A stretch of 28,490 nt of DNA from positions 1 through 28,490 of IMG/VR virus record IMGVR_UViG_3300031857_001033. One strand, written 5' to 3'. A program made the position numbers and the translations under genes. The stretch comes from a virus. Of the stretch, positions 3,312 to 27,186 are shown piece by piece. The notes under the pieces are model-generated. The model was given only the letters and a program-made list of their open reading frames with translations. It ran no database searches and was not told the origin of the DNA. Positions within the stretch are counted from its first letter, which is position 1; every line of letters begins with the position of its first letter.

Positions 3312-3313
3312 CC

Positions 3314-4368: not shown

Positions 4369-4494
4369 ATGCTCATCGCTATCATCGTCTCGCTCGTTCT
4401 TGGTTTTGCTGGCGGCTTCTACGCTGGCCTTAAGAACGCCAACTCGTCTAAGGTCGCCAAGGCCAAGAGCATCTTCGAGGAAATCCACAAGTAA
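4369..4494 (+). CDS. 41-residue single-pass membrane peptide
   Basis: This short frame begins one base after the previous stop, and its TAA shares a base with the ATG of the nozzle gene (TAATG). It therefore fills the only gap in a row of abutting genes. The peptide has one hydrophobic segment (about residues 2-21: LIAIIVSLVLGFAGGFYAGL, with a Gly-rich end) and a basic amphipathic tail ending in SIFEEIHK. The precise fit between neighbours is the main support that it is translated. It may be a small virion or membrane protein. The function is unknown. Confidence 0.55.
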   Translation: MLIAIIVSLVLGFAGGFYAGLKNANSSKVAKAKSIFEEIHK

Positions 4495-6089
4495 TGCCCC
4501 CTGCCCCGCTATTTGCGGGCGATAAGGCGTTCATTGGACTCAACTCCCGTGACAACCCAATCGCCCTTCCGGCCGGGTTCGTGTCACGGTCAGAGAACAT
4601 GCGTATCGACCGGGGCACCCTCACGGTACGCAAGGGACTTGAACGCCTTACTGACGGCGGCCTGATTAACCAGACCGTCTATGGTAGCGGCGTGTACATC
4701 AACGGGTCTGGTCAGGAAACCATTGTGGTTTGCCTTACGTCCAGCCTATACACCTTTAACCCTGACACCAACGTACTAGTAGGGCCCATCAACTATCCAG
4801 CAGGACAGACCATCACGGACCCTGACGTCGTGACCGTCTTTCAGGCGATGGACAAGGTCTACATCACCCGTGGTTTCTCCCTGCGTCCGTTTCAGTTCGA
4901 CTACACGACCGGGACCATCATCTCGCTTCCGACCGTTGGTCATCAGTTTCCCAATGCCGTCTATGGCATCTACTACGGAAACCGTATCATCGTTCAGGAC
5001 TCTATCGACTCGGTTGCGGTTAGCCATTACCTAGACGCTTCGTCGTTCAACCAAACTGACATCTTCAAGATTAACGACGGCGGCAACGACCGTCTGGTCA
5101 GCGTCTGTGCTTGGACCCTGAATGAGTTCGTCGTAATGATGCGTAACAGCATCTTCTACGTCTCCGTCGGTTCTGGCAGTTACGACACCGGGGACAACAT
5201 CGCCGCCGATGCCTATGTGAAGTCGCTTGCTACCGACGTGGGTTGTGCGGCAAAGCGTAGCGTAGTTCAGGCTGGTGGGAGCATCCTGTTCCTGTCGGAC
5301 AACGGTGTCTACGCCCTCAATCCTCAGGCCGCCGGAGCCGGAAACACCAATACTCCTGAAGGCATGCGTCTCCTTACTGTGGCTGAACCTCTTTCTGCCC
5401 CCATTGATGACGTCATCCTGCGAATCAACAGGACCTACGCTCACCGTTCCGCAGGAATCTACTGGAACAACAGGTACTATCTGGCCGTTCCGCTGGACGC
5501 CAACACCAAGAACAGCCACATCCTAGTCTACAACTTCATCAACAAGGCTTGGGAGTCTGTTGACAGTTTCCCTTCCGGTTTTGACGTTCAGAACTTCGTG
5601 GTAGCCAAGAAGGGTTCTCAGCGTCGTCTGTTTGCTTTGGATGACACTCAGGGCTTATTTTTGATGGAGGAACTTGATGCTGATGAATACGGTCAGGCTA
5701 CGGGAACCCCCATTCTCCCATTCTATCTTCCTGAAACACTTAGTGCGGCAAGTTTCCGTGAAAACCTGATTGCAGGTGTATGCGATACAAGGACTTACAT
5801 ATTCGACATTATGGAGTCCAAACGCTACGCCAGCCTTGAGTACGACTTGGCAATTCCTTCCGGGTCCGCAATTCGTGCGTCTGCCGTAACCATAAATCCG
5901 GACAAAGTCAGGGTTCTGGATGAGTACGGAGCAAACGCTGACGGACAAGATGCTACTAGGCGTGTTCCTATTCGCATGACGGCATACGGTATCCGGATTC
6001 GGTTTAACAACCTAAGCAAACGCCCGACGATTCGAGGAGTTCTAGTTGACGCCATCGTACCCGGTAGGAATACTAAGAGTACAGACTAA
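4494..6089 (+). CDS. Tail nozzle-like protein (T7 gp12 position)
   Basis: The 531-residue product opens with the signature common to podovirus nozzle or stabilisation beta-propellers: an N-S-R-D-N-P-I-A-L-P-A-G run (18-29), then the pattern S-E-N-M-R-I-D-R-G and R-K-G (34-48). Repeated beta-rich blocks follow (for example VYITRGFSLRPFQFDY, VYGIYYGNRIIVQD, FVVMMRNSIFYVSVGSG, SILFLSDNGVYAL, IYWNNRYYLAVPL), suiting a propeller. It should extend the tail tube below the adaptor ring. T7 gp12 is larger (794 residues). The 3' third (about 5640-5980) has more A and T than the 5' part. The ATG overlaps the upstream stop. Confidence 0.7.
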   Translation: MPPAPLFAGDKAFIGLNSRDNPIALPAGFVSRSENMRIDRGTLTVRKGLERLTDGGLINQTVYGSGVYINGSGQETIVVCLTSSLYTFNPDTNVLVGPINYPAGQTITDPDVVTVFQAMDKVYITRGFSLRPFQFDYTTGTIISLPTVGHQFPNAVYGIYYGNRIIVQDSIDSVAVSHYLDASSFNQTDIFKINDGGNDRLVSVCAWTLNEFVVMMRNSIFYVSVGSGSYDTGDNIAADAYVKSLATDVGCAAKRSVVQAGGSILFLSDNGVYALNPQAAGAGNTNTPEGMRLLTVAEPLSAPIDDVILRINRTYAHRSAGIYWNNRYYLAVPLDANTKNSHILVYNFINKAWESVDSFPSGFDVQNFVVAKKGSQRRLFALDDTQGLFLMEELDADEYGQATGTPILPFYLPETLSAASFRENLIAGVCDTRTYIFDIMESKRYASLEYDLAIPSGSAIRASAVTINPDKVRVLDEYGANADGQDATRRVPIRMTAYGIRIRFNNLSKRPTIRGVLVDAIVPGRNTKSTD

Positions 6090-8452: not shown

Positions 8453-10861
8453 ATGGCAAACCCCTTCCAACGCTATCAGTCCGGGGGCTTCGAGGCTGTT
8501 CCGGGTATCGCACAAGCCGGTGCGAACATCGGCCAGATGCTCGGCTCCGGATTTTCCAACTTTGGTTCCGCCATCGGTAGCGGCATCAAACAGTACTATG
8601 AGAACAAGGCCAAGTCCACGGCGGCCATGCAGGAGATTGAGGTCCTCGGTCCTCAGTTGCTTGCTCGCCGTAATGCTTACCTTGAAGCGTCCGGCATCGA
8701 CCCGGCCACGCTTGACCGCTACATGCAGGACGACCCGTCCGAAGGCACGGACGATGAGATGTTCAAGTCTGTCGCCTCAAATCCGATGGTTCAGTTGGCT
8801 AAGACCTTAGACCCAGCCATTGAAGCCCTAAAGAACGCTCCGACCAAGGGCCTATCCGCACAGTTGGCCGCACTTAACTCCGGCAAAGCCGCTATCGGCA
8901 TGGTTGACGAACAGATTAAGTTGCAGGACTTTGTCTCTAAGTACCGCCTTGAACAGGTGACTAATGACCTTCCTGACTCCGTTGCTACGGAACAGAACGT
9001 AGTCACTCCGGATGCCTTGTTTGACCCGAACAATCCCTTGTTTGCCAATCTTGGCGAAGTTCGCAAGGCCCTTGAAGAAACCTATCCTAACAATCCTGAG
9101 TTTGTTGAACGAGGCGTTAAACAGTATCTTGACAAGGCTGGTGCCAAGATTCGTGCCGATGAGTCTATCGGTACTCCTGAACAGCGAGCAGGTCTTATTG
9201 ACGCTCTTAACCGCTACGCCGAAGGCAAGTTGGACATTAAGGGTGAACTGACTCCAACGGGAGAAAGTTACGAATACCAAGAGGAGTCGGCCCGCCAAGA
9301 TAAGTTTCGTAAGGAAGCCCTTGCGGAAGCCAAGGCAAAGGCAGAAGGCAAGACCGGCGGCAAGCCGCAGAGTGCTGAAGTTCAGGCTCTTATCAAGAAG
9401 CGTGACGAAAAACTCAAGTATGCCGCTGGCTTTGACGACCCAAAGAACGTCGAGAAAGACCCTACTCTCCGCAAGGAGCAGGAACGTATGCGTGACAAGG
9501 CGAAAGCAGAAGCCGACGCACTCGATGCTCAACTTCGCAACCTTGGAGTAGGCGTCGATGTGGAAGAAGGTCTTAAGAAACTCGCAGGAAGGGCCGCCGC
9601 TGAACGGAAGAAGCCACTTGAACTCAAGGAACAACTTAATGTTCTTGGTTCAGAAATCCTTAGCGAAGTTACGGATAGGAACCTTGCTCGCATCGCAAAC
9701 GGTGAAACCGTCACCGGACTCGATGTCCTCAGGGAGATTACTGGACAAGAAATTAGTCGTAATCCTACTTCGACTCTAGTTGCTCCAGTTCCGGGTTCTT
9801 ATTCGTATGTTCCGCAGAAACTTCCGTCTCAATACACTCCTGCTCGCAAGTTGATGGAAGAAGCCATGAGCAAACTTAAAATTAAACCCGGAGAGCCGCT
9901 TACAGCCGACCAGTTCCTGCAACTTAAGGAAGCGGCTAACGCTGGTATCCAGACCCAGAAAGATACCGCCGTTAAGACTGCCGAAGAAGCGGCAAAGATT
10001 ACCCCTGAATCCGTCGCCAAGGCCGCCACGGAAGCCGCAAAGAAAGCCACGACTCCTGCAACTCCGGCCGTCAAGTCCAAGACCTTCAATGTCGGAGAAC
10101 TTGAACTCGGAACCGAAATCGTCGACCGACGCCTCAATGCCGCCGAGAAGGAAACGGCCGCCCGTGAGTTCTACGCCAAGCGGTTCGGGTCTGTTCCTCC
10201 GGGCTTTACTCAGATGTACCGTCAGATGTTCCCTGAGGCCACGGTTCGCACGACTGAGGTCAATGGCATCCCTGTTATGGTCGACGGCAAGGGCAACGTC
10301 ACAGCCCTCACCAGCAACAAGGAGCAGGATAACACCAAGATTGCCGAGAACAAGGCCGTCACGTTCCAGAACACGGAGATTGCCGATGGCGTCGTCCTTA
10401 ACGGAATCTTCTCTGGTACCGTAGCCGGTGCCATGAACTTCCGAAAGGATTACTCGCACATGGCTAACGTCCGGTCGGCTGTCGACGAACTCATCAAGAT
10501 TAACGAGATGGGTTACGAAACGCTGTCTCCGACGGCCCGTGCCCGTGCTGACCAGTTGCAGTCTGAAATCATCGCCGCCATGCGTATCCCCATCGTGGGT
10601 CCGGGTCAGGTCGCTATTCCCGAACAGCAGATTCTCGAACGCATCATCCAGAAGGGTACCGGCTTCTTCACCCTCGAATCCGGCGAACGTGCCGCCCTCA
10701 AGGGCCTCAAGGACCGAATGGAGCGTGAACTTGTCAACTGGCCCAAGTCCATGGGACTTGAGGTTAAGATTGGCGGCAAGTCTTCCGACACTATCAAAGC
10801 ACTTCGTATGCAGAAACTTCGTTCGTCGAGGAACCTTAAACCCATCGGAGAAGCCAAGTAA
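8453..10861 (+). CDS. Internal virion protein, T7 gp15 position
   Basis: The 802-residue product is large and helical (T7 gp15 has 747). Residues 10-50 contain a Gly-rich amphipathic segment (GANIGQMLGSGFSNFGSAIG). Residues about 270-380 are highly charged and probably coiled-coil (Lys/Glu/Ala-rich). Residues about 505-545 form an Ala/Thr/Pro/Lys-rich hinge (EEAAKITPESVAKAATEAAK). The end is basic. No enzyme motif was found. It lies directly upstream of the giant polyvalent protein, whose ATG follows the stop with no gap, so both are likely parts of one ejected complex. Codon use shifts toward A/T-ending codons at about 9600-9990. Confidence 0.55.
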   Translation: MANPFQRYQSGGFEAVPGIAQAGANIGQMLGSGFSNFGSAIGSGIKQYYENKAKSTAAMQEIEVLGPQLLARRNAYLEASGIDPATLDRYMQDDPSEGTDDEMFKSVASNPMVQLAKTLDPAIEALKNAPTKGLSAQLAALNSGKAAIGMVDEQIKLQDFVSKYRLEQVTNDLPDSVATEQNVVTPDALFDPNNPLFANLGEVRKALEETYPNNPEFVERGVKQYLDKAGAKIRADESIGTPEQRAGLIDALNRYAEGKLDIKGELTPTGESYEYQEESARQDKFRKEALAEAKAKAEGKTGGKPQSAEVQALIKKRDEKLKYAAGFDDPKNVEKDPTLRKEQERMRDKAKAEADALDAQLRNLGVGVDVEEGLKKLAGRAAAERKKPLELKEQLNVLGSEILSEVTDRNLARIANGETVTGLDVLREITGQEISRNPTSTLVAPVPGSYSYVPQKLPSQYTPARKLMEEAMSKLKIKPGEPLTADQFLQLKEAANAGIQTQKDTAVKTAEEAAKITPESVAKAATEAAKKATTPATPAVKSKTFNVGELELGTEIVDRRLNAAEKETAAREFYAKRFGSVPPGFTQMYRQMFPEATVRTTEVNGIPVMVDGKGNVTALTSNKEQDNTKIAENKAVTFQNTEIADGVVLNGIFSGTVAGAMNFRKDYSHMANVRSAVDELIKINEMGYETLSPTARARADQLQSEIIAAMRIPIVGPGQVAIPEQQILERIIQKGTGFFTLESGERAALKGLKDRMERELVNWPKSMGLEVKIGGKSSDTIKALRMQKLRSSRNLKPIGEAK

Positions 10862-13800
10862 ATGGCCGACCTAATCAAGCGTAAGGTCATGGCACCCGTT
10901 CAGGGAGCCATGTTCGGGAACTCGGCTGAGATGGACGAGGAACAGCAGTTCCTTGCCACTCTTGCTCCGGAAGAACGAGAGATGGCCGAGTTGGAACTTG
11001 CGGGACCTATCACCGGAGATGAGTTGGCTCAACTCATGGCCGAGGACTCCAAGTACATGCCGACGAAGGATGAGTACGACGTCTACAAACAATGGATGAA
11101 GACCCGTGAGGTCGACGTCATTGACGCTTTTACCAATGGTTTTGGTCAGGTCCTTAGCGACCTTGGCACCGCCATTGATGCCGGATGGGAAGCCGACGAC
11201 AAGATGGCCAAGGCCCTACCTACTCTCTTTGAAGGCTTTGCCCGTGGTACCCGTGACTTCTACGGCATGCTGGCCCAGTCTCAGGACCCAAACAGCGTCC
11301 TGTTCAAGTTCAAGAACGTGCTGGCCGGTGACGGCTCTGACCCTGAAGCCGAATACCAGCAGTTCTTAGCGGCACGTCAATTTAACGCCGTGACCATGGA
11401 CATCATGGAGAACAAGACCACCGGGTCCAAGGAGTTCTTCGGCGTCGAAATTGACAAGGACTTGCTTATCCCCGAGGTGGCTCAAGCCGTTTCCTACATC
11501 GCTGACCCTACCCTTTTCATTCCTTCCGGTGCCTTTGGTGCCGTCGCCAAGGCCGGTGCCAAGGCTATCGGTGCTGGACACTTCGCCGAGAAAATCATCG
11601 CCGCCGCCGGAAAGGCTCAGGCTTTCAAGGATTTGGCCCTTGCTGGCACCCTGCGTATTGCCGGTATGCCCCTTGAACTCGTAGGTCGTGCTACCAGCAG
11701 TACCATTGACGGGGCTGTTGCCCGTGGCTCTGCCTTGTTTGGTGACGTTATCGGCATGAGTCCGGAAACCTTTAACGCCACCCTTCGTGGGGCTGGCCTT
11801 ACGACTACTGCCCTTCAGGTCCCCGGATGGTCTACCGTCTCTGACGCTTACTTTGCCGCCAACGTAATCGGTGGCATCGGCGAAACTCTTGGTGCCGTTG
11901 GCCGTCAGGTCGGCGGACAACAGCGAGGCATCCTTTCTTACGCCAAGCGAGCCTTGCTTGCCGAAGGTGATAAACTCACCCCTCAGGCCAAGCGGATGCT
12001 CCAAATCATCGACACCGCTGACCCGCTGTTTGGCTATGCCTATGCGGCTGGTGAAGGTGCCCTTGAAGGTGCGGCTATTGGTGGTTTCTTGGGTAGCCTT
12101 GCTGGTGGCCTTGAAGGTGCCGCCGCCGGTGCTGGTTCCGGTTCCGCCCTTGGTGCTATTGGTGGAGCCGTAGGTCGTGGCGTCACGGACATTCACAAGG
12201 AACGTACCCGCATCCAAGCGGACATGGTCATCGAAGGACTCAAAGATACTGACACGGTCCAATACGATGCCATGAACACCCTTCGTGCCTTGGGCCGCAA
12301 GCACGACAAGTCCTACGACCACATCATTGTCGGACTTGATACAGTAGCCCCCGGAGCCCGTCTGCACATGCACGATGGGGCTTCTTTCGAGGCTTACCTT
12401 CAGAAGAACAAGTTGGTCGATACCTTTGACCCTGACCGTCCGGGCCGTGTGCTTCGTGGAGAAGACCCTGCCAACCCGCTGATGTACCATCGCTGGGAAG
12501 GTTTCGTGATTCAGAAGGATAAGGATGGTCATACCGAAATCTTCATCAATACGGATTGGGCCCTAGAGAACGCCATGGGACACGAACTGTTCCACGGCAT
12601 CATGCGTTCTTCCGTCTACGCCAAGAACTTTACCGACGCCGTCACTAACAGCATCATCGGTACCCGTGGCCCGAAAGGAGAACTCATCCGAGCCGGTGAG
12701 GTTCCTCCGGCTGAAGCCTATGAGATGTTCAAGCGGTACATTGACATCGAGTACAAGGACCCTGTGGCCAAGAAAGCCAAGATGGACCAGTTGGACGTCG
12801 CCATCAAGGAATGGGAAACCAACGGAAAACTCATCTCTGAGTCCGGATTGGAAGGTCGTGCCATCCTTGAAGACCTTTCTGAGGAGTTCGGTGCTTACTA
12901 CTTCAACCATTGGCTAGACGATAAGTCTCCCGACTACCTTTTCTTCGGCGGTAAACTGCCCGGCATCCGTGGTCTGTTTGACGACATGAAGATGGGCTGG
13001 CTGTCGTTCACCGAGGCCCGACTCAAGAAGTCGATGCCCGGATTCAACTTTTCGGAAACCGTCATTGACCCACGCACCGGCAAGCCTCGTCAGGCTTACA
13101 TTGACGAAGCCTTCCGTCGTCCTAGCGGCCGCACTCGTTTCTCCGCCCTTGACTACCTGATGCGTGATTTGGTCCGTGCCGCATCCGGGGTAAACACCAA
13201 CGACAACATCATCCTGCGTAACATGACTCCGGAGCAACGTGCCCGGTTCATGGATGCTCATGGCCTCGACGGCCTTTTCCGTCGTGACGTCACCGGTGGT
13301 GCCCGTGAGACTTCCGAGGCTCAGATGCGTCGGGAAAATCAGACCCGAGTCAAAGGCATCATCGACACAGTCAATACTATCCCCGCCAACGAGCGTGGGA
13401 CCCAGACCATCGTCGATGTAAACGGAGACACCGCCATCATCGGTACCCTTTCGGACCGTGAACTTGAGGTCATCGTCAAGAACGGCCACATGAGTCAGGC
13501 CCTTGCCGACAAGTACAAGACCATCCGTGAGGTGTCCGGCAACAAGGGCAAGGGTGCCAACGTCCTTCAGTCCAACTACTGGGGCGAATCCATCGAGACT
13601 GGTTCCGGAGTCAACGCTCCCCGTGTGGTCAATACCGGCGGCACTCGCTCGGTTCCGATGACCCGCCGTGTGTTCGTCCCGCACTCGCTTGAGACGGTCA
13701 TTACCCTCAAGAAGAACGGAGATGCCAATTTCGGCGTCCTCGCCCACTCCCTAGACTACGACAACCTTGGTCGCCGCAGTCAGGCCGTGTACGGCATGCC

Positions 13801-16800
13801 CGAAGCCCGGGCCCTGTACAACAACGACTACAACTCGTTCCAAGCGGACTTCTACCGCTACCTCCAGAATCTCAGCGACCCGAACGCCATCCCCTCTGCC
13901 GACCTGTTCGGCGGCGGCGACATTGGTGCCAAGAAGCGTAACTTCTTTCACGAAATCGTGGGCTCCGCCCTTCGTCAGGGTGAAACCTACATCAATCCTC
14001 CCCGTGCTGGCTACGCCGGTCCTGCCGGTCGTGGCGAGTTCTTCGTCTACCAGACCCTGCGTATTGACCGCATGAGCCATGTGGCCGTTCGTCCGGACAT
14101 CGTCCCTTACGACCATTCTCAGGTCTACGACCGCACCCGCCGTAACTACAAGCCGAGCGAACTTGCCGTCGAAGAAGTGCAGGGCGGCCTAATTTACAAG
14201 CACCCGCAGGGGTACAACATCATCAAGCGTGGTTCGATGGCCCGTGCTTACGACCTTGATGGCAAGGAAATCGGCACCTTCTCTGATGCCGAGTCGGCGT
14301 CCCGGGCAATAACCCGTGACCTGAAGCGTCGTGATAACGAGGGCTATGTGGCCACAGTCAGAAAGACCAAGGCAGAACAGCGTATGTTCAAGCCGGTCGA
14401 GTCGAACGAAGCCATGGAAGCCCGACAGAAAGGCGATTTGTTCATGACCGACGCCATGCGTACCTTTGCCGGTACTCACGGAATCATCCGCCAGACCGCA
14501 GACGAATCCTACTCCGACTACTCCAAGAGCATCGTCGAAGGCGTCGTCACCAAGGCTCAGGCCGAACGCATCCTGATGATGGCCGAGGGTGCCTTCAAAG
14601 GTGAGTTGCGTATCCAGCAACTTCAACAGCGACTCGACCTGCTTGAAAGTCAGGGCTCGAACGGAGCCCGTCTTGGCAAGTACAGCAAAGGCATCGAGGA
14701 CGTCATCAACAAGCACTTCAATCCTACGAACGACGCTTTTCTTGCCAGTCGCCCAATGGCGTTCCTTGGAGGTACCGACGCACTTCTGAAGGCCGCCAAG
14801 GATGCACAGTCTCTGGACGAAGTCCTCACCGGATTCGTTTTTGAGTTGGCAGGAAAGAAAAAGGGCGGAACTGGAATGGACATGCGTAGGGCCCGTGAGA
14901 TTACCGCTGAACTGGCTCCTCATGCCAACGAACTGTTCAATCAGGTAAAGATGTTCGGAGAGCGTGAGGCCATACAGAAGGAACTCAAGCGTCCTCAGGT
15001 CGGGCACCATGACTACTACTATGGCCGGGACCGTGCCAATCTTCAGGAAGACGCCCGTCGTGTTTCTCAGGTCCGTGAATACATCGACACGCTTGACCCG
15101 AACAAGAACGTCGAAGGTCTTGGCCAGTACCTTATCGACAATCTTCCGCTTCGACGCATCTACCAGAACGAAGTCTATCTCCAACAGTTCGACACCGGAG
15201 TTCCTTTCGTCGCTACTGTTGTCCATGGCACTCCGAACGTGGACCTAGTCAAGTCCCGTGAGTTTGACCCGTCCCGTGGCGGAGAGACTACCGGTGCCGT
15301 TTCCGCCGCTAAGGCCGTGTTCTTTGCCGCCTCGGACGAGACTGCGATGGCTCCTCTCTATCAGATTGGAAAGCAGACCAACCCTGAGTTCAATCCGGAC
15401 GGCACGGTGGCCAAAGTGAACATGCTCAAGGTCGCCATCAAATCGGACAATCCGTTTGTTGCTGACCTGTCCATGATTCCTCCGGACAAGAAGGTCGGCT
15501 ACCTAGGCATCCGTGGCGTCGTTGAAGAAGCGTTCGCCAAGGGCCATGACGTAGCCGTCATTCACAACGTCCGGGACGGCGGCGACTTCGACACCGTGTT
15601 CGCCATCCGCAACGACCGGGTCAAGGACCTTCATCGTGTCATTGAGACGACGCTGGACAAGGCCGCCGGTCAGACTCCCCTCCCCCGTGGCGACGGAGTC
15701 ACCGTAGGTACCAAGAATCTCAAGCCAGCAGAAGGTGACGCTATCCCTGACTGGCAGACTCAGAGGGCTCAGGATGCTCGGGCAAACCAGCCCCGAGAAC
15801 TCTGGTCCTATCCTGACACCCCCCAGTTCCGTAAGTGGGCCGGTAGACTTCCGTTCATTAAGAGTGAAGATGCCGCAACGAAAACGGCAAACTACGACAA
15901 AGGGTTCGTAACTACCGTATTTAAGGGTGTTAATGTTCGTTCATTCGACAAGTTTTCCGAAAGAAGCGTCGTTGACCCTAATGAACGGTCACTAAAAACT
16001 GACCCTAACTTCTTTATCGGCGATGAGACTGCGGCTGAACGCTATGCCGGTGGAGGTTACACGGACATTAGCGGGTTGAACGAAGATGCCCAAAAGGTGG
16101 CAAGCAGAGGAAAGGCCGACATGTACTATGTCAGGAGTCAAAACCCAGCGAATCTACTTGGGGCACATAAACTAGAACTCAAGAACCCGAAGTTGGCTGA
16201 AGTCATTAGGAAGTACTGGGAGCAGAACATCAGGAAAGAAGGCGGTGACATCCTAGACCCACAGTCCCGTTTCGATAGATTCCTGCTGGAGATTTCCATG
16301 GGTGACTGGCTCAGGCCCAGAAATGAAATGACCACCATGAGCCCATTTGGTAAGTCTTGGAGGATGAGCAACTGGGTTGATTTCCATGAGTACTTGCTCC
16401 AGAACGGCTATGACAGCGTAGTCATTCAAGACAACTCAGTTAGCCTGAAGACACCTACCATCATTGTCGGCCAAGAGACGGCCAACGTAAAGGCTTCCAG
16501 CAACTACGGCGAGTTCTCCCGGAAAGACACCCGGTACAACTTCAAGCCAGCCGAAGGCGACATGCCTAGCGGCCCGCTTCGTGACTTCGAGAGCGTCAAA
16601 GAAGACCGCAACTTCAAGAAGTTCGCAAGGGGCACGGAGATTGTCGACCCTATCGACGATTTCAGCGGCCCGGCAAACTACATTGAAAAGCACGGCGTAG
16701 ACATGAACGGACCGTATGTCCTCATCTGGGACAAGACAGCAAACGCTTGGTTACAGCCGTCTAACGCCACCGGAACGACCATGAGTTTCAAGAAGGGTGC

Positions 16801-19800
16801 TACCTTCTTGGCCTACCATGGCTCTACCAGCAGGGAGCGATTCCAGTTCCTGCGTTCAGACTTGAAGGCCGATGAGTCTTATTGGGCCCGCATGGGTAGC
16901 CCTGACTCGGCCATGGGCACCCACTTCACAAACGACGAGGTACTTGCCAAGAACTTCACCTATCGTGAGATTGACAGGGTCGCCGAAGACTTCCGCCAAG
17001 AAGGCGAATCGTTCAGTTGGCGTGTCAATGAAGACCTTGAGTATGAGAAGCCCGGCCCTCAGGGACCCGGTGGACAGTTGTACGCTGTCGCTGTCCGCAT
17101 GGACAAGCCTATCTACTTCGACTCCGAGGTTCAGTTCCAAGCGGAAATCAGGAACGCCGGTGGTGCCGAACAACTGAAGGCCCGCCTCAAGAAGGACGGA
17201 TACGACGGCATCATCTACAAGATTTACGCCGAGGTTCTGGACCAGAAGAAGAAATTGTCTGGCTACCCGGGCTTTGAACTTACTCCAGACTTCGCCAATC
17301 AGTTCCTTGGCGACAACGTCTTCGGCTACATTCCGTTCGATGCCAAGAAGGTCAAGGACGTCGAGTACAACCGTGGCTCCTTCGACAAGACCAAGAAGGA
17401 CATTCGGATGAAGCCGGTCGAAGGCGACATGGAGCCTACCGGAAAGACTTATGACGTGAACTCTAAACTGTTTACGTCCAAGTTCTTGGGAAGATACGCC
17501 AAAGAAAACCCGGGCATTTTAGATGGTCTTACTATCAAGGTAGACTATGACACGCAAAGTTCTCCATTCAAGGACGAGCAAAGTCCTTATGGAATGGTCA
17601 TCAGGATAGATAACCCATGGGAAGGCGGCGGCAAAGACCCAATCGCACAAATTGGAATCAGGTTTGAACACGACTATGGAGGTTCCCTGTACGGAAAGCA
17701 TGCCTATGTAACCCGTGTTGATGTTCGTAGCGACATGCGAGGCAAGGGGTATGGGAAACTAATCTATTCCGAAGCGGGAGAGCGTGTTCGCTCGCTTGGC
17801 TCAGAAAACATCCTTGGTAGCGTAATCAACAGGGACAACATCCCATTCTACATCAGGGAGGAAATCTTTGGCAAAGGTTCAACCGAACAACCTGACGGCA
17901 AGGGTGGAAGGACCGTAACCAGAATCGACAAGAACGCCTACTACAAGCCAGTCGAAGGCGAAGGCCAGCCTCCTCGCCCCCTCAAGGAGTACCTTGCCGA
18001 AAGAGGTGCTGACTTCAACCCTGAGGAACTCGTTGGTGCCATCGTCAGATACCGCAAGGACGCCGACGACGAGCCTGATAACTTCTGGCGTATCTTGGGA
18101 TACGGTAAGGGCAAGAACGGTCATTTCCTGAAGTACATCAAGGAAAACGAGTACAAGGAAATCATGGATTCCGGGGCTTCTGGCATGCTATTGCAGATGA
18201 AACTCCGGGACGCCACTCAACAATTCGGCGGAACCAAGTACGACAACTACAAGGAAGTCTCCGACCTCACCAAGTGGTTCGGACGAATCTATGACCAGAT
18301 TGAGTTCCCTGCCGGGGAGCAGAAGGTCGAGTTGCCTAAGCCCAAAGCAATCGACACGGGCACCTTCCGTGGCATCCTTGAGGATGTCGAGGCTGGCATC
18401 GACGCCGTGCAGTTCACCAAGGACCACACGACCCAGTTGTACGGAAACAAGTCTGGCACCAAGAAGGGCATCATGAAGGAAGCCGCCGCCGCCTTGGAAG
18501 CCTACGACAAGGCTACGACCCCGGAAGCCAAGGAAGCCGCCATCTCGGAACTCATGGACTCCATCGAGTCGCTCAGGGAAATCCTGAACGAACTAGAGGA
18601 CATTCAATCCAACTCCGAAGCCTTCGAGAACACCGAAGGATACCAGCGTCGTGAGGAACAAATTGAGGCCCTGACCGAGGCTGTCGACGCATTGGATGAC
18701 GCTATTAAGCCGGACGAAACGGGCGGCGATTCCCCTCAGGTCAACATGAAGCCGTATGAGGGTGAGACTAATAATGCCATTGTCCCTGACCGTGGCGTAT
18801 CGACTCCGGTAGGTCACACCTTCATCAAGATTCCTAGAGGTGAGACGCCTGACCCCAAGAAGCACACCTTTGAGCAGTTCCTTGAATGGAAGTCTCGCCC
18901 GGGGAACGGCGGTCAAGTCATTATCCGTGACGCACTAGACTTTATCATCGGTCAGGGTGGCTACATGTCTGCTACGGCGGAGATGCTCAAGACCCTCATC
19001 GAGGATACCAAGTCTGTCTATCGTGGCGACCCTGCTAACAGAATCAGCCTACTTGATAGGTATGTGAATCTTGTAAAGGACGGTGGTCAGGGCGGACCTG
19101 AACGGACCGAAATCCCGAAACCGGGAAGCGACCAATCTCAAAACCAGCCTATGATGGGGACGCTCCTTGACCTCATCGACGAATACAAACAGGTCTGGGC
19201 TACTGGTCGCCGTAAAACCAACTCGCTACCGGCCGAGGGAATCCAAGGTCGTGGATTCGAGGGCGTGTTCTTCGAGGAGGTGATGCACACATTCCACGGA
19301 GAGGCACTAGGGGCCAACTCCGTTCTAGGCGGAGTGCCGTCAGGATTCGAGTCTAGCACCGGGGCACAGGCTGTTCGCAGACTGTTCAAGAGGGTAAGAG
19401 GAGGAAACCTCAACGTAAGCGGAACCCAATGGATTGCCGAGCGAAACAACTTCATCACGGATGTCGGCATGCGTATCAAGAAGTACGAGCGTCAGTTGGC
19501 CTCCGGGACGATTACTCAGGTAGACTTTGACGCCAAGATAGACGGCATGCGTATAGAGATTGCCGCCGCCCGTGTGCTTAGGGTGCATGAACATGCACTC
19601 AACAACATCGACGTAGACGTCCGCAAGACGACCTATGACAAGAAGGGCAACGTATCCAAGGTCGACACAAAGCGTGTCAAACTCATCGACCTGATTAAGA
19701 ACAAGTTGAACTTGGTAGACCCGCTTCAGAACTTCGGCGGTGAGAAGCCGTTTGAGTACGGCAAGCACAACCTAGCAGATGGTTCTTACGTCAAAGTTGA

Positions 19801-20665
19801 AAGCACTATTGTAAGGCACGATGCGAAGTACGACCTTCTAAAGAGCGACGCAGAGAGGTTTGGCAGTAACGTCAACAAGGGTATCTACCGGTTCCAGAAT
19901 CCGATGGAGTTCATGATTATGGCCTTCTCGGACCCATACACGACCGCACTTCTTCGTGACATTCCTGCGGTGGACATGGGCAACCTTGACGTCTATGAGC
20001 GTGGCAAGTCTTCGTTCCCCAAGGACCCGAACGACCCTCTTGGCCAACCAATCCGCCCGAGTTCTCAGCGTGGACTTACTCGCTGGTTCAAGAATCTTGG
20101 CGGCGTAATCGCTCAGTTCTTCGATGCCATCACTAGGTTCTATGACATCAGCAACAGGGGCAAGACTCTGCTTGAACAGAACGTCGAGGAATCGCTCCGT
20201 CTCATCTCTGCTCACCGAGATAAGGACATAAAGCCCCGTCAGGCAAAGCCTACGCCACCGGCTCCACCGCCTACCCCGGCTCCGCCTCCCACGCCGCCTA
20301 CGCCGCCTACGCCGCCTACGCCGCCTACGCCACCCACTCCCCCTACTCCGCCTACGCCGCCTACGCCGCCCACTCCCCCGACGCCGCCCACTCCCCCGAC
20401 GCCGACCCCTACTCCTCCGACGCCGCCGCCGAAGCCTACGCCTAGTCCGCTTCCTGCTCCGGTTAAGCAACCGGCTATCATCTGGAGGTCGTGGACCAAT
20501 AGTACGACCGAAAACGGCTCCATGTGGCGTAATGCCGTGGGTTACAGCATCGTGTACTTGGCTGGCCGTAAGTTCCGTCTCTACAATCCGCAGAACGCCC
20601 TCGTCGGAATCTACAACGACATTGAGGAAGCCAAGCGGCGTGTCAGACGAGACGAACCCAAATGA
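10862..20665 (+). CDS. Giant polyvalent virion protein with protease, ART and GNAT modules
   Basis: The 3267-residue product occupies the T7 gp16 position (gp16 has 1318). Residues 1-460 are helical with hydrophobic Ala/Gly stretches, including a glycine zipper at about 399-440. A zincin-like site follows: H574-E575-L-F-H578, with a candidate third ligand in EEFGA (674-678). Three ADP-ribosyltransferase-like modules start near H1455, about 1680 and H1986. A GNAT-like motif R2293-G-K-G-Y-G-K lies at about 2190-2360. A K-P-x-E motif recurs at 1177, 1621, 1895, 2184, 2362 and 2630, between modules. A Pro/Thr repeat (about 3130-3200) and a small beta-beta-alpha module (3225-3267, resembling 1108-1163) end the protein. 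I infer injection into the host, like T7 gp16 or P1 DarB. No lytic transglycosylase motif was seen in it. Confidence 0.8.
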   Translation: MADLIKRKVMAPVQGAMFGNSAEMDEEQQFLATLAPEEREMAELELAGPITGDELAQLMAEDSKYMPTKDEYDVYKQWMKTREVDVIDAFTNGFGQVLSDLGTAIDAGWEADDKMAKALPTLFEGFARGTRDFYGMLAQSQDPNSVLFKFKNVLAGDGSDPEAEYQQFLAARQFNAVTMDIMENKTTGSKEFFGVEIDKDLLIPEVAQAVSYIADPTLFIPSGAFGAVAKAGAKAIGAGHFAEKIIAAAGKAQAFKDLALAGTLRIAGMPLELVGRATSSTIDGAVARGSALFGDVIGMSPETFNATLRGAGLTTTALQVPGWSTVSDAYFAANVIGGIGETLGAVGRQVGGQQRGILSYAKRALLAEGDKLTPQAKRMLQIIDTADPLFGYAYAAGEGALEGAAIGGFLGSLAGGLEGAAAGAGSGSALGAIGGAVGRGVTDIHKERTRIQADMVIEGLKDTDTVQYDAMNTLRALGRKHDKSYDHIIVGLDTVAPGARLHMHDGASFEAYLQKNKLVDTFDPDRPGRVLRGEDPANPLMYHRWEGFVIQKDKDGHTEIFINTDWALENAMGHELFHGIMRSSVYAKNFTDAVTNSIIGTRGPKGELIRAGEVPPAEAYEMFKRYIDIEYKDPVAKKAKMDQLDVAIKEWETNGKLISESGLEGRAILEDLSEEFGAYYFNHWLDDKSPDYLFFGGKLPGIRGLFDDMKMGWLSFTEARLKKSMPGFNFSETVIDPRTGKPRQAYIDEAFRRPSGRTRFSALDYLMRDLVRAASGVNTNDNIILRNMTPEQRARFMDAHGLDGLFRRDVTGGARETSEAQMRRENQTRVKGIIDTVNTIPANERGTQTIVDVNGDTAIIGTLSDRELEVIVKNGHMSQALADKYKTIREVSGNKGKGANVLQSNYWGESIETGSGVNAPRVVNTGGTRSVPMTRRVFVPHSLETVITLKKNGDANFGVLAHSLDYDNLGRRSQAVYGMPEARALYNNDYNSFQADFYRYLQNLSDPNAIPSADLFGGGDIGAKKRNFFHEIVGSALRQGETYINPPRAGYAGPAGRGEFFVYQTLRIDRMSHVAVRPDIVPYDHSQVYDRTRRNYKPSELAVEEVQGGLIYKHPQGYNIIKRGSMARAYDLDGKEIGTFSDAESASRAITRDLKRRDNEGYVATVRKTKAEQRMFKPVESNEAMEARQKGDLFMTDAMRTFAGTHGIIRQTADESYSDYSKSIVEGVVTKAQAERILMMAEGAFKGELRIQQLQQRLDLLESQGSNGARLGKYSKGIEDVINKHFNPTNDAFLASRPMAFLGGTDALLKAAKDAQSLDEVLTGFVFELAGKKKGGTGMDMRRAREITAELAPHANELFNQVKMFGEREAIQKELKRPQVGHHDYYYGRDRANLQEDARRVSQVREYIDTLDPNKNVEGLGQYLIDNLPLRRIYQNEVYLQQFDTGVPFVATVVHGTPNVDLVKSREFDPSRGGETTGAVSAAKAVFFAASDETAMAPLYQIGKQTNPEFNPDGTVAKVNMLKVAIKSDNPFVADLSMIPPDKKVGYLGIRGVVEEAFAKGHDVAVIHNVRDGGDFDTVFAIRNDRVKDLHRVIETTLDKAAGQTPLPRGDGVTVGTKNLKPAEGDAIPDWQTQRAQDARANQPRELWSYPDTPQFRKWAGRLPFIKSEDAATKTANYDKGFVTTVFKGVNVRSFDKFSERSVVDPNERSLKTDPNFFIGDETAAERYAGGGYTDISGLNEDAQKVASRGKADMYYVRSQNPANLLGAHKLELKNPKLAEVIRKYWEQNIRKEGGDILDPQSRFDRFLLEISMGDWLRPRNEMTTMSPFGKSWRMSNWVDFHEYLLQNGYDSVVIQDNSVSLKTPTIIVGQETANVKASSNYGEFSRKDTRYNFKPAEGDMPSGPLRDFESVKEDRNFKKFARGTEIVDPIDDFSGPANYIEKHGVDMNGPYVLIWDKTANAWLQPSNATGTTMSFKKGATFLAYHGSTSRERFQFLRSDLKADESYWARMGSPDSAMGTHFTNDEVLAKNFTYREIDRVAEDFRQEGESFSWRVNEDLEYEKPGPQGPGGQLYAVAVRMDKPIYFDSEVQFQAEIRNAGGAEQLKARLKKDGYDGIIYKIYAEVLDQKKKLSGYPGFELTPDFANQFLGDNVFGYIPFDAKKVKDVEYNRGSFDKTKKDIRMKPVEGDMEPTGKTYDVNSKLFTSKFLGRYAKENPGILDGLTIKVDYDTQSSPFKDEQSPYGMVIRIDNPWEGGGKDPIAQIGIRFEHDYGGSLYGKHAYVTRVDVRSDMRGKGYGKLIYSEAGERVRSLGSENILGSVINRDNIPFYIREEIFGKGSTEQPDGKGGRTVTRIDKNAYYKPVEGEGQPPRPLKEYLAERGADFNPEELVGAIVRYRKDADDEPDNFWRILGYGKGKNGHFLKYIKENEYKEIMDSGASGMLLQMKLRDATQQFGGTKYDNYKEVSDLTKWFGRIYDQIEFPAGEQKVELPKPKAIDTGTFRGILEDVEAGIDAVQFTKDHTTQLYGNKSGTKKGIMKEAAAALEAYDKATTPEAKEAAISELMDSIESLREILNELEDIQSNSEAFENTEGYQRREEQIEALTEAVDALDDAIKPDETGGDSPQVNMKPYEGETNNAIVPDRGVSTPVGHTFIKIPRGETPDPKKHTFEQFLEWKSRPGNGGQVIIRDALDFIIGQGGYMSATAEMLKTLIEDTKSVYRGDPANRISLLDRYVNLVKDGGQGGPERTEIPKPGSDQSQNQPMMGTLLDLIDEYKQVWATGRRKTNSLPAEGIQGRGFEGVFFEEVMHTFHGEALGANSVLGGVPSGFESSTGAQAVRRLFKRVRGGNLNVSGTQWIAERNNFITDVGMRIKKYERQLASGTITQVDFDAKIDGMRIEIAAARVLRVHEHALNNIDVDVRKTTYDKKGNVSKVDTKRVKLIDLIKNKLNLVDPLQNFGGEKPFEYGKHNLADGSYVKVESTIVRHDAKYDLLKSDAERFGSNVNKGIYRFQNPMEFMIMAFSDPYTTALLRDIPAVDMGNLDVYERGKSSFPKDPNDPLGQPIRPSSQRGLTRWFKNLGGVIAQFFDAITRFYDISNRGKTLLEQNVEESLRLISAHRDKDIKPRQAKPTPPAPPPTPAPPPTPPTPPTPPTPPTPPTPPTPPTPPTPPTPPTPPTPPTPTPTPPTPPPKPTPSPLPAPVKQPAIIWRSWTNSTTENGSMWRNAVGYSIVYLAGRKFRLYNPQNALVGIYNDIEEAKRRVRRDEPK
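20245..20470 (+). repeat. Pro-Pro-Thr coding tandem repeat in the giant gene
   Basis: A nine-base unit (consensus ccgcctacg) is repeated with drift and encodes a Pro-Pro-Thr tract of roughly 50-60 residues including flanks. The most regular copies are at about 20289-20330. Later copies vary at third positions (acg, act; ccg, ccc) while keeping the amino acids, so selection seems to act on the protein. It is likely an extended polyproline linker holding the last small module away from the body. The array may expand or contract by slippage. Confidence 0.85.
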
Positions 20666-22622: not shown

Positions 22623-22900
22623 CGGTCCATGACAGGCTTGAAGTGCCGGTCGACATAGACCGGAGTCCGGTCGCCGACGTAGGCGTTCTGGATGTTGTAC
22701 AGGAAGTACTCGTCGGATTCCTCGAACGACATTTGCTTGGACAGTTCGATGAGCATCTTGGACTTGTCGTAGATTACCTTGTAGACGCCGTTGTAAAGGG
22801 CGTAGCCTATGATGCAGGAATCAAACCCGTCGGCAAACAGGAGATTTTCATCTCCCGTCTGCTCGACGAGTTCTTTCCGAATGTCCCGCTTCCGTCCCAT
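22619..22900 (-). CDS. Conserved small phage protein of unknown function
   Basis: The 93-residue product resembles a small conserved family common in phage replication operons. Its recognisable parts are TGDENLLFADGFDSCIIGYA (about 15-34), a V-I-Y-D strand, a helix with FEESDEYFLYNI, and AYVGDRTPVYVDR near the end. I know no proven function for this family. Both ends overlap neighbouring genes by one to four bases, placing it firmly in the recombination operon just downstream of the ERF gene. Confidence 0.7.
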   Translation of the reverse strand: MGRKRDIRKELVEQTGDENLLFADGFDSCIIGYALYNGVYKVIYDKSKMLIELSKQMSFEESDEYFLYNIQNAYVGDRTPVYVDRHFKPVMDR

Positions 22901-23640
22901 TAGAACGGGACGTCGTCAGGAGCGACGTCGCTGGCGGCAGGAGCCCCGGTGGCGGCGGCGTAGAGGGCCACGGCGGTACGCTTCAGTTTGAGGTCCTTTT
23001 CGGAGACACGGCCGGTCTTCTCGAACGGACGGGGCTCCCAAGTGTTCGCCCAATAGCCGAGGTCGTCAGCGGTCAGGGAGCCAATCTGCTGGCCCTTGTT
23101 GCGGCCGAACGGAAGGACCATGGACGGGTCGCTGTCGCCAGCCGGGATGACCACCTTGGCGGCAGGAGCCGGGGCGGCGGCGAGCATAGCCCGGGCACCA
23201 GCCACGGCGGCGGCGGCCTTGGCGGCAGGAGCCGGGGCGGCGGTGCGGACGATGCGGTCAGCCTCGGCGTCGTCGTCCGTAGTAGCCAGACCAGCCACGG
23301 CGGCGATGGCATAGCGGCGAAGGTACGAGAACAGGGAACCGGCGTCCTGACCCTTCACGGTTTCACCGACGGGCAGGGTGACGTAGTTCTGGATGTAGCC
23401 GCCATCCTTGTGAATGACCATGGTATTGACGCCGACCTGATTGCCGTCGCCGTGCGGGAACTGCACGATGGCAAGGCCGTGCTTGGCGAAGACTTCCTTG
23501 GTCGCCGACAGGTGAGCCCCGAGGGTGGCGTAGGAGTTCTTGTGAAACGGGTTCTGGGCGTCAGCGACGACGCTCGTTCCGGCTTCGTTGATGGCGGCCA
23601 CCAAAGCGGCGGCGAGTTCGGGGGTGATGTTATTAGTCAT
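22900..23640 (-). CDS. erf: ERF-type single-strand annealing protein with extra C-terminal parts
   Basis: The 246-residue product belongs to the ERF family of phage annealing proteins, which pair complementary single strands during recombination. The family features are NPFHKNSYATL (30-40), the block G-Q-D-A-G-S-L-F-S-Y-L-R-R-Y-A (97-111) and TTDDDAEADR (120-129). An Ala/Pro linker (about 134-165) follows and contains an exact DNA duplication. Next is an LPFGRNKGQ motif (177-185), as in small FGKxKG-type domains. The protein ends in DVAPDDVPF, very like the acidic tip by which SSB proteins recruit partners. The likely exonuclease partner is at 27221-28069 on the other strand. No Shine-Dalgarno sequence was seen. 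The ATG lies 26 bases from the upstream gene's stop. Confidence 0.88.
   Translation of the reverse strand: MTNNITPELAAALVAAINEAGTSVVADAQNPFHKNSYATLGAHLSATKEVFAKHGLAIVQFPHGDGNQVGVNTMVIHKDGGYIQNYVTLPVGETVKGQDAGSLFSYLRRYAIAAVAGLATTDDDAEADRIVRTAAPAPAAKAAAAVAGARAMLAAAPAPAAKVVIPAGDSDPSMVLPFGRNKGQQIGSLTADDLGYWANTWEPRPFEKTGRVSEKDLKLKRTAVALYAAATGAPAASDVAPDDVPF
23154..23243 (-). repeat. 27-bp direct repeat encoding the Ala/Pro linker
   Basis: Two identical 27-base copies lie at 23154-23180 and 23217-23243, 63 bases apart, so the duplication stays in frame (21 codons). They encode the APAPAAK-containing linker of the ERF protein. A third, imperfect copy lies at about 22932-22957, near the C-terminal Ala-rich part. 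This looks like linker growth by duplication in a GC-rich segment, not a regulatory array. Confidence 0.8.
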
Positions 23641-23666: not shown

Positions 23667-23837
23667 TTAAGCGGCGGCACGTTCAAGTGCGGACCTCACG
23701 AAGTCCGAGCGAGACAGACCTTGCTTCTTCGACAAGGCGTTCAGCGACTTCATGAGCCAGTTCGGTACACGGACGGTCAACATCTGCTCGGAGATGACTT
23801 CCTTCGTGGAGGGTTTGGATTTCTTGGTTTTGTTCAT
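23667..23837 (-). CDS. Ribbon-helix-helix DNA-binding protein
   Basis: The 56-residue product has a basic N-terminal arm (MNKTKKSKPSTK) and then the ribbon-helix-helix pattern: a short strand EQMLTVRVP (17-25), helix A WLMKSLNALSKKQG (27-40) and helix B SRSDFVRSALERA (42-54). RHH proteins dimerise and bind operators through the paired strand, so it is probably a repressor or copy regulator for this phage. The ATG at 23837 overlaps the stop of the lysozyme-like gene (ATGA), which supports translation. The stop lies 26 bases before the ERF start. It could regulate its own operon, but no operator was identified. Confidence 0.75.
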   Translation of the reverse strand: MNKTKKSKPSTKEVISEQMLTVRVPNWLMKSLNALSKKQGLSRSDFVRSALERAAA

Positions 23838-24349
23838 GGAGAAAAAATGCGTTCGGCCCTTTGCAGTATGGCCTTTCGTTCGTCAGCAAGCGTCGGGTGT
23901 CGGTGATTGTGTGCATAGCGTTCGGCCATGTTGATACCCATGTTGTAAGACATGTAAAGCGAAATCTTCGTCGGCTTGTATCCTTCCTTGGTGAGGGTCC
24001 TCTCAATCCAAAGAAGGTGGTCCCGGGCAACCCGGCGGGACTTCTCCGGGTCAAAGCAGTTGGCCCGGCAGTAGGCATAGGACGCCGGGATGCGGCCGTA
24101 CATCCTACGGACTGCGTCGTCCCAAGCGGCCCGCTTAATCTGGTAAGCACCTAACTCCCCGGCCCTGCCTACCGCAGTAGCCCGGCCGTCGCTCTCGACT
24201 ACGGCAAGCCTGTCGAGGTAAGTCTCGTCGACGATGCTGGCTTGCAAGGTAAGGGGTGCCAGCCACACGGCTGACACCCCGGTTGTATTTGCTATGCAAC
24301 CCGCAAGACCCAACAACCACGCCTTGCAGAAGTTAAGATGCCTAGTCAT
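23834..24349 (-). CDS. Exported lysozyme/transglycosylase-like protein
   Basis: The 171-residue product has a hydrophobic N-terminal segment after a basic start (CKAWLLGLAGCIANTTGVSA, about 8-27), a signal peptide or signal-anchor. It then shows a lysozyme-fold pattern: LDRLAVVESDGR with E52 as candidate catalytic acid, AVGRAGELGAYQIKRAAW (59-76), and later ISLYMSYNMGIN. This E-S-x-G ... G-x-x-G-x-x-Q-I/L pattern is that of SLT-like lytic transglycosylases and phage lysozymes. It could be the endolysin, since the lysis cassette lacks one. It lies in the replication operon, nine bases after the DnaC-like gene, and overlaps the RHH gene. A possible lipobox (L-A-G-C18) is noted but uncertain. 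Confidence 0.7.
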   Translation of the reverse strand: MTRHLNFCKAWLLGLAGCIANTTGVSAVWLAPLTLQASIVDETYLDRLAVVESDGRATAVGRAGELGAYQIKRAAWDDAVRRMYGRIPASYAYCRANCFDPEKSRRVARDHLLWIERTLTKEGYKPTKISLYMSYNMGINMAERYAHNHRHPTLADERKAILQRAERIFSP

Positions 24350-24358
24350 CGGCGTATG

Positions 24359-25030
24359 TCAAGCCCCAGCCCCGACGAGGGTGTAGTAATCCCGGAACCG
24401 CCGGACCAAGGCGGCCGACATTTCCTTGTCGTCGAAGCGGTCGACGAGGGCCTGACCATTGAAGTTGGTCGTGATGATGGTAGGCCGCATGGCCGTGGAC
24501 CTTTCGTCTAGGACGGCAAACAGGTCGGAGACGAGCCGGGCGGTCCCCCTCTCCTTCCCGAGGTCGTCAAAGACCAGCAGGTCCACCTTGATGAGGTCTT
24601 CCAGCATCTTGCTGTGGGACTTCTCGGTGAAGGATTCCTCGATGAGCCCCTCAAACTTACGCATGGTCAGGAACCGGTAAGGCATATTCTGGTCCTTGCT
24701 TGCCCGGTCCAGCCACAGCCGGTTGACGACGTGCCAAGCCAGCCGGGTCTTACCTACGCCCGTTGTGCCGTGGAGCAAAAGCCCGGACTTCTGTTCGTTC
24801 GGAACCCACTCCGACGCCGCTTGCAATCGGGGATGCAACTTGCTCACCTCCGTTCCACGGAACAGTAGCGGATAGGACGGGACGAACTTCGGGTCTTCAA
24901 GCCCGTCGTGCCGCACACGCTCCGGGTCAAGATGCTCTCGGCACCTGTGGTAGCGGGTCAACTTGCCTTCGGCGTTCACCAGAAGGGCACAGCGTTTGCC
25001 ACAATGGCAAGCCACATCAAAACTGCTCAT
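24359..25030 (-). CDS. DnaC/IstB-like AAA+ helicase loader
   Basis: The 223-residue product has a small Cys/His cluster at its N-terminus (C8, C10, C14, C30, H33), a possible zinc site. An AAA+ ATPase core follows: Walker A G88-T-T-G-V-G-K-T95, Walker B DLLVFDDLGKE, a sensor-1 strand PTIITTNFNG and a C-terminal arginine-rich segment (AALVRRFRDY). This matches DnaC-type loaders, which place the replicative helicase at an origin. The upstream gene is a lambda-O-like origin-binding candidate and overlaps this ATG by 14 bases, the O/P-type pairing. The helicase itself is not in the window, so the phage may recruit the host enzyme or encode it elsewhere. Confidence 0.85.
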   Translation of the reverse strand: MSSFDVACHCGKRCALLVNAEGKLTRYHRCREHLDPERVRHDGLEDPKFVPSYPLLFRGTEVSKLHPRLQAASEWVPNEQKSGLLLHGTTGVGKTRLAWHVVNRLWLDRASKDQNMPYRFLTMRKFEGLIEESFTEKSHSKMLEDLIKVDLLVFDDLGKERGTARLVSDLFAVLDERSTAMRPTIITTNFNGQALVDRFDDKEMSAALVRRFRDYYTLVGAGA

Positions 25031-26671: not shown

Positions 26672-26872
26672 ATGGAAATACTCGTAATGCTAGGACTATG
26701 CTTTGTGGCCGTCGGAGTGCCTATCTACATAGTCTGTCATCTGGCGGCCCTATTCGGGCCGGATTCGTTTATCAAGAAGAACCCCCCCGGGCCACACATC
26801 AATCATCTTCACAGATTCTACGAACGAGGGACGGCCGCTGGTTCGTCGGCAAGAAAAGGTCGGCGAAAATAA
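26672..26872 (+). CDS. Small membrane ORF overlapping RusA-like gene
   Basis: The ATG at 26672 gives 66 residues with one strong hydrophobic segment (MEILVMLGLCFVAVGVPIYI, extending to about 27) and a basic, Pro/Gly-containing tail ending KGRRK. It begins just after the divergent intergenic region. It overlaps the RusA-like frame by 175 bases in another reading frame. Only one of the two may be fully used in this stretch, because RusA proteins usually start close to the conserved domain. Translation is plausible but unproven. Confidence 0.4.
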   Translation: MEILVMLGLCFVAVGVPIYIVCHLAALFGPDSFIKKNPPGPHINHLHRFYERGTAAGSSARKGRRK

Positions 26873-27186
26873 GACCCTTCCTCGAAGCGTTCACCGCTGT
26901 CGCACGGGCACACCGGCCCCCGGAACCTTTGTCCGGCCCGGTGTGCCTGTCCGTGCATTGGGTGTTCCGGATGGCCCAGCGAAGGAGAAAGGGCAAGACC
27001 CACAAGGGAATGATTGAGGTCCCTTGCACAGTCCGGCCCGACCTCGACAACCTAGCCAAGTCGGTAATCGACTGCCTCGCCGCCGCTGGATGGTTCACCA
27101 ACGACTCGGTCATCACCCGGCTGGTCTTGGCCAAGTCCGAGGGCGACGTCCCCCGGCTCGAAGTGGAAGCACAAGATGACGCTTGA
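26698..27186 (+). CDS. rusA: RusA-like Holliday junction resolvase
   Basis: The frame gives 162 residues, and the RusA-like part covers roughly residues 50-150. The key block is V-R-P-D115-L-D117-N-L-A-K121, followed by a helix and W-F-T-N-D136-S-V-I. This matches the Asp residues and Lys that cleave four-way junctions in RusA. RusA enzymes resolve recombination or replication intermediates, fitting the nearby exonuclease and annealing genes. The first 45 residues look unlike the family, and the only ATG in frame is 26698, inside the membrane ORF. The true start may be a later non-standard codon. A seven-C run at about 26784-26790 is a possible slippage site. The stop overlaps the next promoter-like element. 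Confidence 0.8.
   Translation: MLCGRRSAYLHSLSSGGPIRAGFVYQEEPPRATHQSSSQILRTRDGRWFVGKKRSAKIRPFLEAFTAVARAHRPPEPLSGPVCLSVHWVFRMAQRRRKGKTHKGMIEVPCTVRPDLDNLAKSVIDCLAAAGWFTNDSVITRLVLAKSEGDVPRLEVEAQDDA

Follow-up and report, generated by a model that had tools for sequence, protein, structure and literature searches.

Matched linkers and a constant zincin-like domain in a family of giant phage proteins suggest a self-processing effector polyprotein

A single open reading frame takes up about a third of an IMG/VR virus record of 28,490 bases (here called the window, meaning the whole stretch of DNA that was analysed), and it raises the question of what a phage would do with one chain of 3267 residues that joins several unrelated enzyme domains. 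As the first-pass annotation had described it, the frame (10862..20665, + strand) is open and intact, with 3267 codons followed by a stop. It sits inside a structural-gene block, downstream of a scaffold-like gene (100-1119), an SU10-type major capsid protein (1145-2173, E 1e-49) and a tail/head-closure-like gene (4494-6089), and its start abuts the end of an 802-residue neighbor (8453..10861, + strand) with a weak match to Phage_lysozyme (E 0.008). In all loci that can be read there, the gene immediately before the giant is likewise a long open reading frame. Downstream of the structural block are an ERF recombinase (22900-23640, - strand), an SLT transglycosylase (23834-24349, - strand), a DnaC/IstB-like ATPase (24359-25030, - strand) and a RusA resolvase (26698-27186, + strand). 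Position among these genes, taken by itself, points to a virion protein; together with the polyvalent architecture described below and the adjoining long upstream gene, it suggests that the giant is probably delivered into the bacterium along with the phage DNA. As a separate observation, the upstream gene is much longer (1200-1400 residues) in the S and H lineages, named below after a linker residue, and in one locus (L155, 4788-8648) it bears a LysM domain.

After further scans and dereplication, the giant was found to belong to a family of about 50 non-redundant proteins, all from environmental phage, most of which have 2200-3500 residues (2258-3467 where a main-family member is complete). 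These are proteins of uncultured aquatic phages: relatives are encoded in 28 of 36 related virus records, none was detected among 50,697 phage records, and the core used as a query against 84,980 bacterial genomes gave no match, hence no prophage or host from that source. Relatives of the major capsid protein are common in IMG/VR (216 loci, many on contigs of about 40 kb). Two distant capsid relatives considered as further carriers, Phage C75C1 and Ochrobactrum phage OH, lack the giant family. The combination of modules in the window had been called unusual; the particular set of effectors is indeed one variant, but it is a variant within a large family whose core is fixed and whose choice of effectors varies between phages, and the description therefore needs rewording. 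The designation as a polyvalent protein holds good: with its zincin-like domain, a GNAT domain above the curated cut-off, ART-PolyVal-like domains and a place in a block of virion genes, the giant agrees with the polyvalent proteins that Iyer et al. 2017 describe, and it likely acts on several host targets at entry.

The constant part of the protein consists of a fixed core, residues 1-1160, and a C-terminal module of 60 residues, which together bracket a region of shuffled effectors. Within the core, iterated profiles define three blocks, N1, the zincin and M2, which are present in all giants whose start is covered, with one exception (L144, for M2). N1 (residues 1-435; 10862..12166, + strand) is conserved, contains Gly/Ala-rich hydrophobic stretches and possibly serves in ejection. 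The proposal of a gp16-like base was not confirmed: profile comparison with the PDB detected no homology between N1 and gp16 or other solved ejection proteins, and a weak match to the tape-measure family PHROG 167 appeared in two of 14 N-terminal members (best E 4e-4). M2 (residues 791-1096; 13232..14149, + strand) is followed at the end of the core by an internal copy of the C module (residues 1097-1156; 14150..14329, + strand), and the terminal copy (residues 3207-3267; 20480..20662, + strand) forms the C-terminus. The two copies are related to each other when separately built profiles are compared (hhalign probability 98%, E 5e-14, 31% identity). The terminal module ends all complete main-family giants and is among their most conserved elements, and no C module was detected in any other open reading frame of the loci or in other phage proteins; a packaging or ejection signal would be our guess at its role. 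In the window it is preceded by a Pro/Thr-rich tandem repeat linker (20255..20479, + strand); at that place a linker of the type XPAEGWRDW occurs in several other lineages.

The zincin-like metallopeptidase domain (residues 484-712; 12311..12997, + strand), supported by conservation and a structure model, carries the zinc motif H574-E575-L-F-H578 (12581..12595, + strand) exactly as first noted. Across the family H574 is conserved in 47 of 48 giants and E575 and H578 in 48 of 48, more than expected by chance, and a pair of glutamates, E674-E675 (12881..12886, + strand), a candidate third zinc ligand, is invariant in all 49 giants in which it was scored. An AlphaFold2 model built from 38 sequences (pLDDT 77, pTM 0.71) places strands before the HExxH helix (model residues 89-100), with E674/E675 on a later helix (185-202). 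The best PDB folds for this model are the zincin-like domains of two Bacillus toxins, at E-values of 0.02-0.3 that make the similarity suggestive only; a first structure model, covering residues 436-1165, gave no significant PDB fold, and the alignments of zincin and ART, run as profiles against the sequences of the PDB, gave no match. In a viral library the domain matches proteins of uncultured phages with E-values down to 4e-13, one of them annotated with a large polyvalent protein domain. Among Pfam families, five of 38 zincins match a putative zinc peptidase family weakly (best E 6e-4). Many relatives, among them L130, L131, L132, L137, L139 and L142, have about 50-220 extra residues inserted within the zincin block, ahead of a strand beginning near residue 547. 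One divergent giant of 3467 residues (L144, 1386-11789) reads EELFH and is the only member to have lost the first zinc histidine; recognized linkers and a recognizable M2 are absent there too, while the terminal C module is kept.

Between the ends of this frame lie the effector modules. Three ART-like modules had been proposed, two of which are supported. ART1 (residues 1431-1621; 15152..15724, + strand) has a family of about 30 proteins and gave no direct match to Pfam; it is related to ART3 by profile comparison (probability 93%, E 4e-7, against 0.1% for a reversed control). ART3 (residues 1965-2184; 16754..17413, + strand) resembles ART-PolyVal (PF18760), with 22.6 bits and E 2e-4 against a curated cut-off of 31.2 bits, and its relatives match the same family at up to 8e-19. 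The intervening module, residues 1660-1895 (15839..16546, + strand), for which we keep the label ART2, shows no detectable relation to ARTs: the hhalign probability to the ART modules is 2-4%, VFKG stands where the others read HGT or HGS, and no family was found. Homology to ART-PolyVal and the strand-1 histidine were both looked for in this module without success; its assignment as an ART is unsupported. The GNAT acetyltransferase (residues 2190-2362; 17429..17947, + strand) is confirmed by PF00583 at 23.0 and 28.3 bits against a cut-off of 20.7 (E 2e-6 for the piece searched), with the motif RGKGYG at residue 2293. The remaining modules, X1 and X2 (residues 2363-2630; 17948..18751, + strand) and X3/X4 (residues 2634-3110; 18761..20191, + strand), have no family that we could find. 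These modules behave as cassettes. GNAT occurs in 32 of the 50 giants as 46 copies, up to three per protein, and ART1-type modules in 31 of 50, the others being rarer and their order changing. With a near-identical relative, L149 (the same contig as L002), the window shares 97% of its bases through nucleotide 5003 of the gene and all of the last 61 residues of the protein, against 30-60% identity in ART2, ART3, GNAT, X3 and X4; sharp breakpoints are seen at residues 1898 and 2631. Among members of the window's clade dN/dS is mostly 0.05-0.4, which shows the modules to be constrained.

What joins the cassettes is a short motif. Most modules end in [FYML]-X-P-x-E-G, in which the first position is aromatic or hydrophobic and the glutamate is usually followed by glycine, and the motif is repeated up to nine times per protein. 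A position-specific linker profile recovers 181 sites of at least 10 bits from the giants, where shuffled sequences give 0.7. The window has seven such sites, all on the + strand: the core linker YKPSE with K1097 (14147..14161), FKPVES with K1177 (14387..14404), LKPAEG with K1621 (15719..15736), FKPAEG with K1895 (16541..16558, beside the breakpoint at 1898), MKPVEG with K2184 (17408..17425), YKPVEG with K2362 (17942..17959) and MKPYEG with K2630 (18746..18763, beside the breakpoint at 2631). A further linker-like site, at residue 1965, scored low and was taken as chance. The residue at X is set by lineage: it is K in the window's clade and Q, M, S or H in others, and is the same across unlike modules. 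In 117 of 127 cases the X of a linker in the variable region equals that of the core linker, against a mean of 31 and a maximum of 71 when core residues were permuted among proteins in 10,000 rounds, and in the tree of the core K, Q, M and S each occur in two or more separate clades. The code can extend beyond X, one clade of six proteins reading K-V-x-D at 36 of 45 linker sites, with positions +1 and +3 changed as well. Near-identical modules (90-94%) carry the X of whichever phage houses them: a module shared by L165 and L192 (94% identical over 260 residues) ends in WQPAEG in one and WMPAEG in the other, one shared by L130 and L168 (92% over 203 residues) in FQPTEG and YKPVEA, and one shared by L172 and L205 (90% over 183 residues) in YQPTEG and YMPAEG. 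None of this, neither the linkers nor the pair of C modules around the effectors nor the swapping of cassettes, was noticed in the first-pass annotation.

Each of 959 core columns was compared with X across 15 lineages, with lineage labels permuted and the best column taken in every permutation, a procedure that models phylogeny incompletely; the lineages are not fully independent. The best column is residue 546 (E546 in the window, 12497..12499, + strand), which lies in the zincin, ahead of the last-but-one strand before the HExxH helix; p(max) is 0.021 in the general test and 0.0015 in a test of acidic residues with K, the latter post hoc, having been devised after column 546 had been seen in what was an exploratory scan. 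In earlier scans the same residue ranked third, not significantly, with 11 lineages, and reached p 0.045 with 15. The second-best column of the general test, 618, is likewise in the zincin. Four neighboring phage proteins gave p-values of 0.60, 0.62, 0.78 and 0.087, none significant, in the general test and of 0.054, 0.92, 0.91 and 0.038 in the acidic one. By lineage, the five with K at X all have E at residue 546 and the two with Q both have K; the M lineages have A or S there, and S1 and H1 have N. E546 is found in every one of the 16 giants whose core linker has K. Counted by single linkers, E546 goes with 34 K and 2 S, K546 with 39 Q, 2 S, 1 K and 1 M, A546 with 19 M and 12 Q, and N546 with 12 S and 2 H. 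Within one clade the tree order of linker and zincin residue is M/A, then Q/A (L165), then Q/K. Two lineages found after the rule had been formed fit it, namely L243 (K/E) and the distant L370 (M/A). Lineages S2 (S with E or D) and S3 (S with K) break it in its simple form. The distant members L319, L321, L323/L324 and L372-L374, which have the zincin and few or no linkers, do not fit it; two of these proteins, in L319 (7070-20491, running off the end of the record) and L321 (6977-20212), exceed 4400 residues and retain an HExxH zincin. The scan thus suggests, at p = 0.021, that the linker motif and one zincin residue change together between phage lineages.

The agreement of linkers with the core linker, the co-variation at residue 546 and the re-lettering of near-identical modules lead us to read the zincin as a predicted processing protease, constant in the family, rather than as one more host-directed effector, the role first proposed for it. 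We consider it reasonably probable that the giant is a virion-delivered polyvalent effector polyprotein that cleaves itself at the linkers by means of its own zincin. In such a scheme, N1, the zincin, M2 and the C-terminal module would make up the constant frame, and the ART-like, GNAT and other modules between its ends would be interchangeable units, each closed by a linker. The zincin would recognize the linkers and most likely cut the chain there; proteases cut poorly at an X-P bond, and the cleavage point would therefore have to be next to it. Cutting could take place before packaging, inside the head or after entry, and would yield from the window's protein a core (residues 1-1096), the internal C copy and pieces with ART1, ART2, ART3, GNAT, X1+X2 and X3+X4+C. 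The freed ADP-ribosyltransferases, acetyltransferases and other enzymes would then modify host targets. As the specificity of the zincin drifts between lineages, the linkers would have to match it, even those on newly acquired modules. The fuller picture, in which the in-chain zincin of an injected polyprotein reads punctuation marks that are specific to the lineage and stand between exchangeable effectors, and in which modules taken over from other phages have to be re-punctuated before they can work, seems to us somewhat likelier to be right than wrong.

The same observations can be read differently. The chain might be ejected whole and stay uncut, its zincin docking the linkers or attacking host proteins, and the linkers serving as hinges or binding motifs. 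The virion RNA polymerase of N4, which is reported in PMC5512222 to be packaged unprocessed, would be a precedent, and co-variation between linker and zincin indicates contact at most, not cutting. Yet the near-invariance of HExxH and E674 suggests catalysis, under docking it is hard to see why every module should end in a matched linker, and a protease directed at the host is not expected to co-vary with the linkers of its own protein; we regard an uncut chain as unlikely, if still a serious competitor.

Two further readings take the zincin out of the explanation. One holds that the linkers are recombination seams, short stretches of conserved DNA for module exchange that gene conversion keeps alike, and it draws on the breakpoints at residues 1898 and 2631, which adjoin the linkers at 1895 and 2630, and on the synonymous codons of the linker glycine, whose agreement exceeds expectation (0.51 observed against 0.32 expected). 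The codons of P (0.39 against 0.34) and E (0.56 against 0.53), however, agree hardly more than expected gene-wide, which places the sameness of the linkers at the level of protein and argues against DNA homogenization as its cause, and gene conversion explains neither the co-variation with a zincin residue nor the changed linkers on near-identical modules. Seams may well arise as a side effect of the linkers; as their explanation we hold them to be improbable. The other reading assigns the cutting to a separate enzyme, a protease of the phage prohead or one supplied by the host. The prohead protease of T4 cuts T4 internal proteins, and the conserved acidic residue at linker +3 recalls the sites of prohead proteases; the portal/terminase side of the genome lies outside the window. 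No prohead protease of the S78 or Clp type, the two types covered, was found in 13 large relatives, and the best co-varying column sits in the giant's own zincin, for which reasons a separate enzyme appears to us very improbable.

Processing by the in-chain zincin would have consequences beyond this locus. Self-cutting of polyvalent proteins has so far been a proposal, put forward without sites in the available text of PMC5512222, to which the giant family may add candidate cut sites and a candidate specificity residue; because the family offers natural changes of specificity, the open question becomes testable with peptides and a single protease domain. If the scheme is right, a phage keeps a large, exchangeable arsenal that can be delivered via one conserved carrier, and protease specificity and linkers co-evolve; the giant would then be the phage equivalent of a multi-effector toxin that processes itself. 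The linkers also provide a handle for delimiting uncharacterized effector modules in environmental phages.

Such toxins offer a parallel in logic. Like the giant, MARTX toxins have conserved ends, central interchangeable effector domains and an in-chain protease, which in MARTX cuts between the effectors and frees them in the target cell (PMC6315884) and for which we infer a similar action in the giant. The MARTX enzyme, in contrast, is a cysteine protease activated by InsP6, in a toxin secreted by bacteria (PMC6315884), and homology is not claimed. In its late position within the structural block, after a long virion-type gene, the giant resembles T7 gp16 and other podovirus ejection proteins (PMC8954989), from which it differs in an N1 block without detectable homology to them. 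It also recalls the virion RNA polymerases of N4 type, which PMC5512222 and PMC12633501 describe as chains of about 3,500 residues that are encapsidated and ejected and have a zincin-like domain; no RNA polymerase module was found in the giant, and the N4 enzyme, with no effector cassette known, is reported as packaged uncut. The nearest relatives in kind are the polyvalent proteins themselves. As set out in PMC5512222, these too combine several unrelated enzyme domains in a chain with a zincin-like metallopeptidase hub, have ART-PolyVal beside GNAT and are encoded among late virion genes. Iyer et al. 2017 propose there that the peptidase may free the other domains by autoproteolysis, and their examples include both a cut protein (DdrB of P1) and an uncut one (the N4 polymerase). 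The zincin of the giant has no match to a curated Pfam family of polyvalent-protein peptidases. Within the limited open-access literature, the available portion of PMC5512222 gives no inter-module linker motif and does not use the word "linker"; as compared with the polyvalent proteins presented there, the giants are set apart by a lineage code of sites and by the pair of C modules that brackets their effectors.
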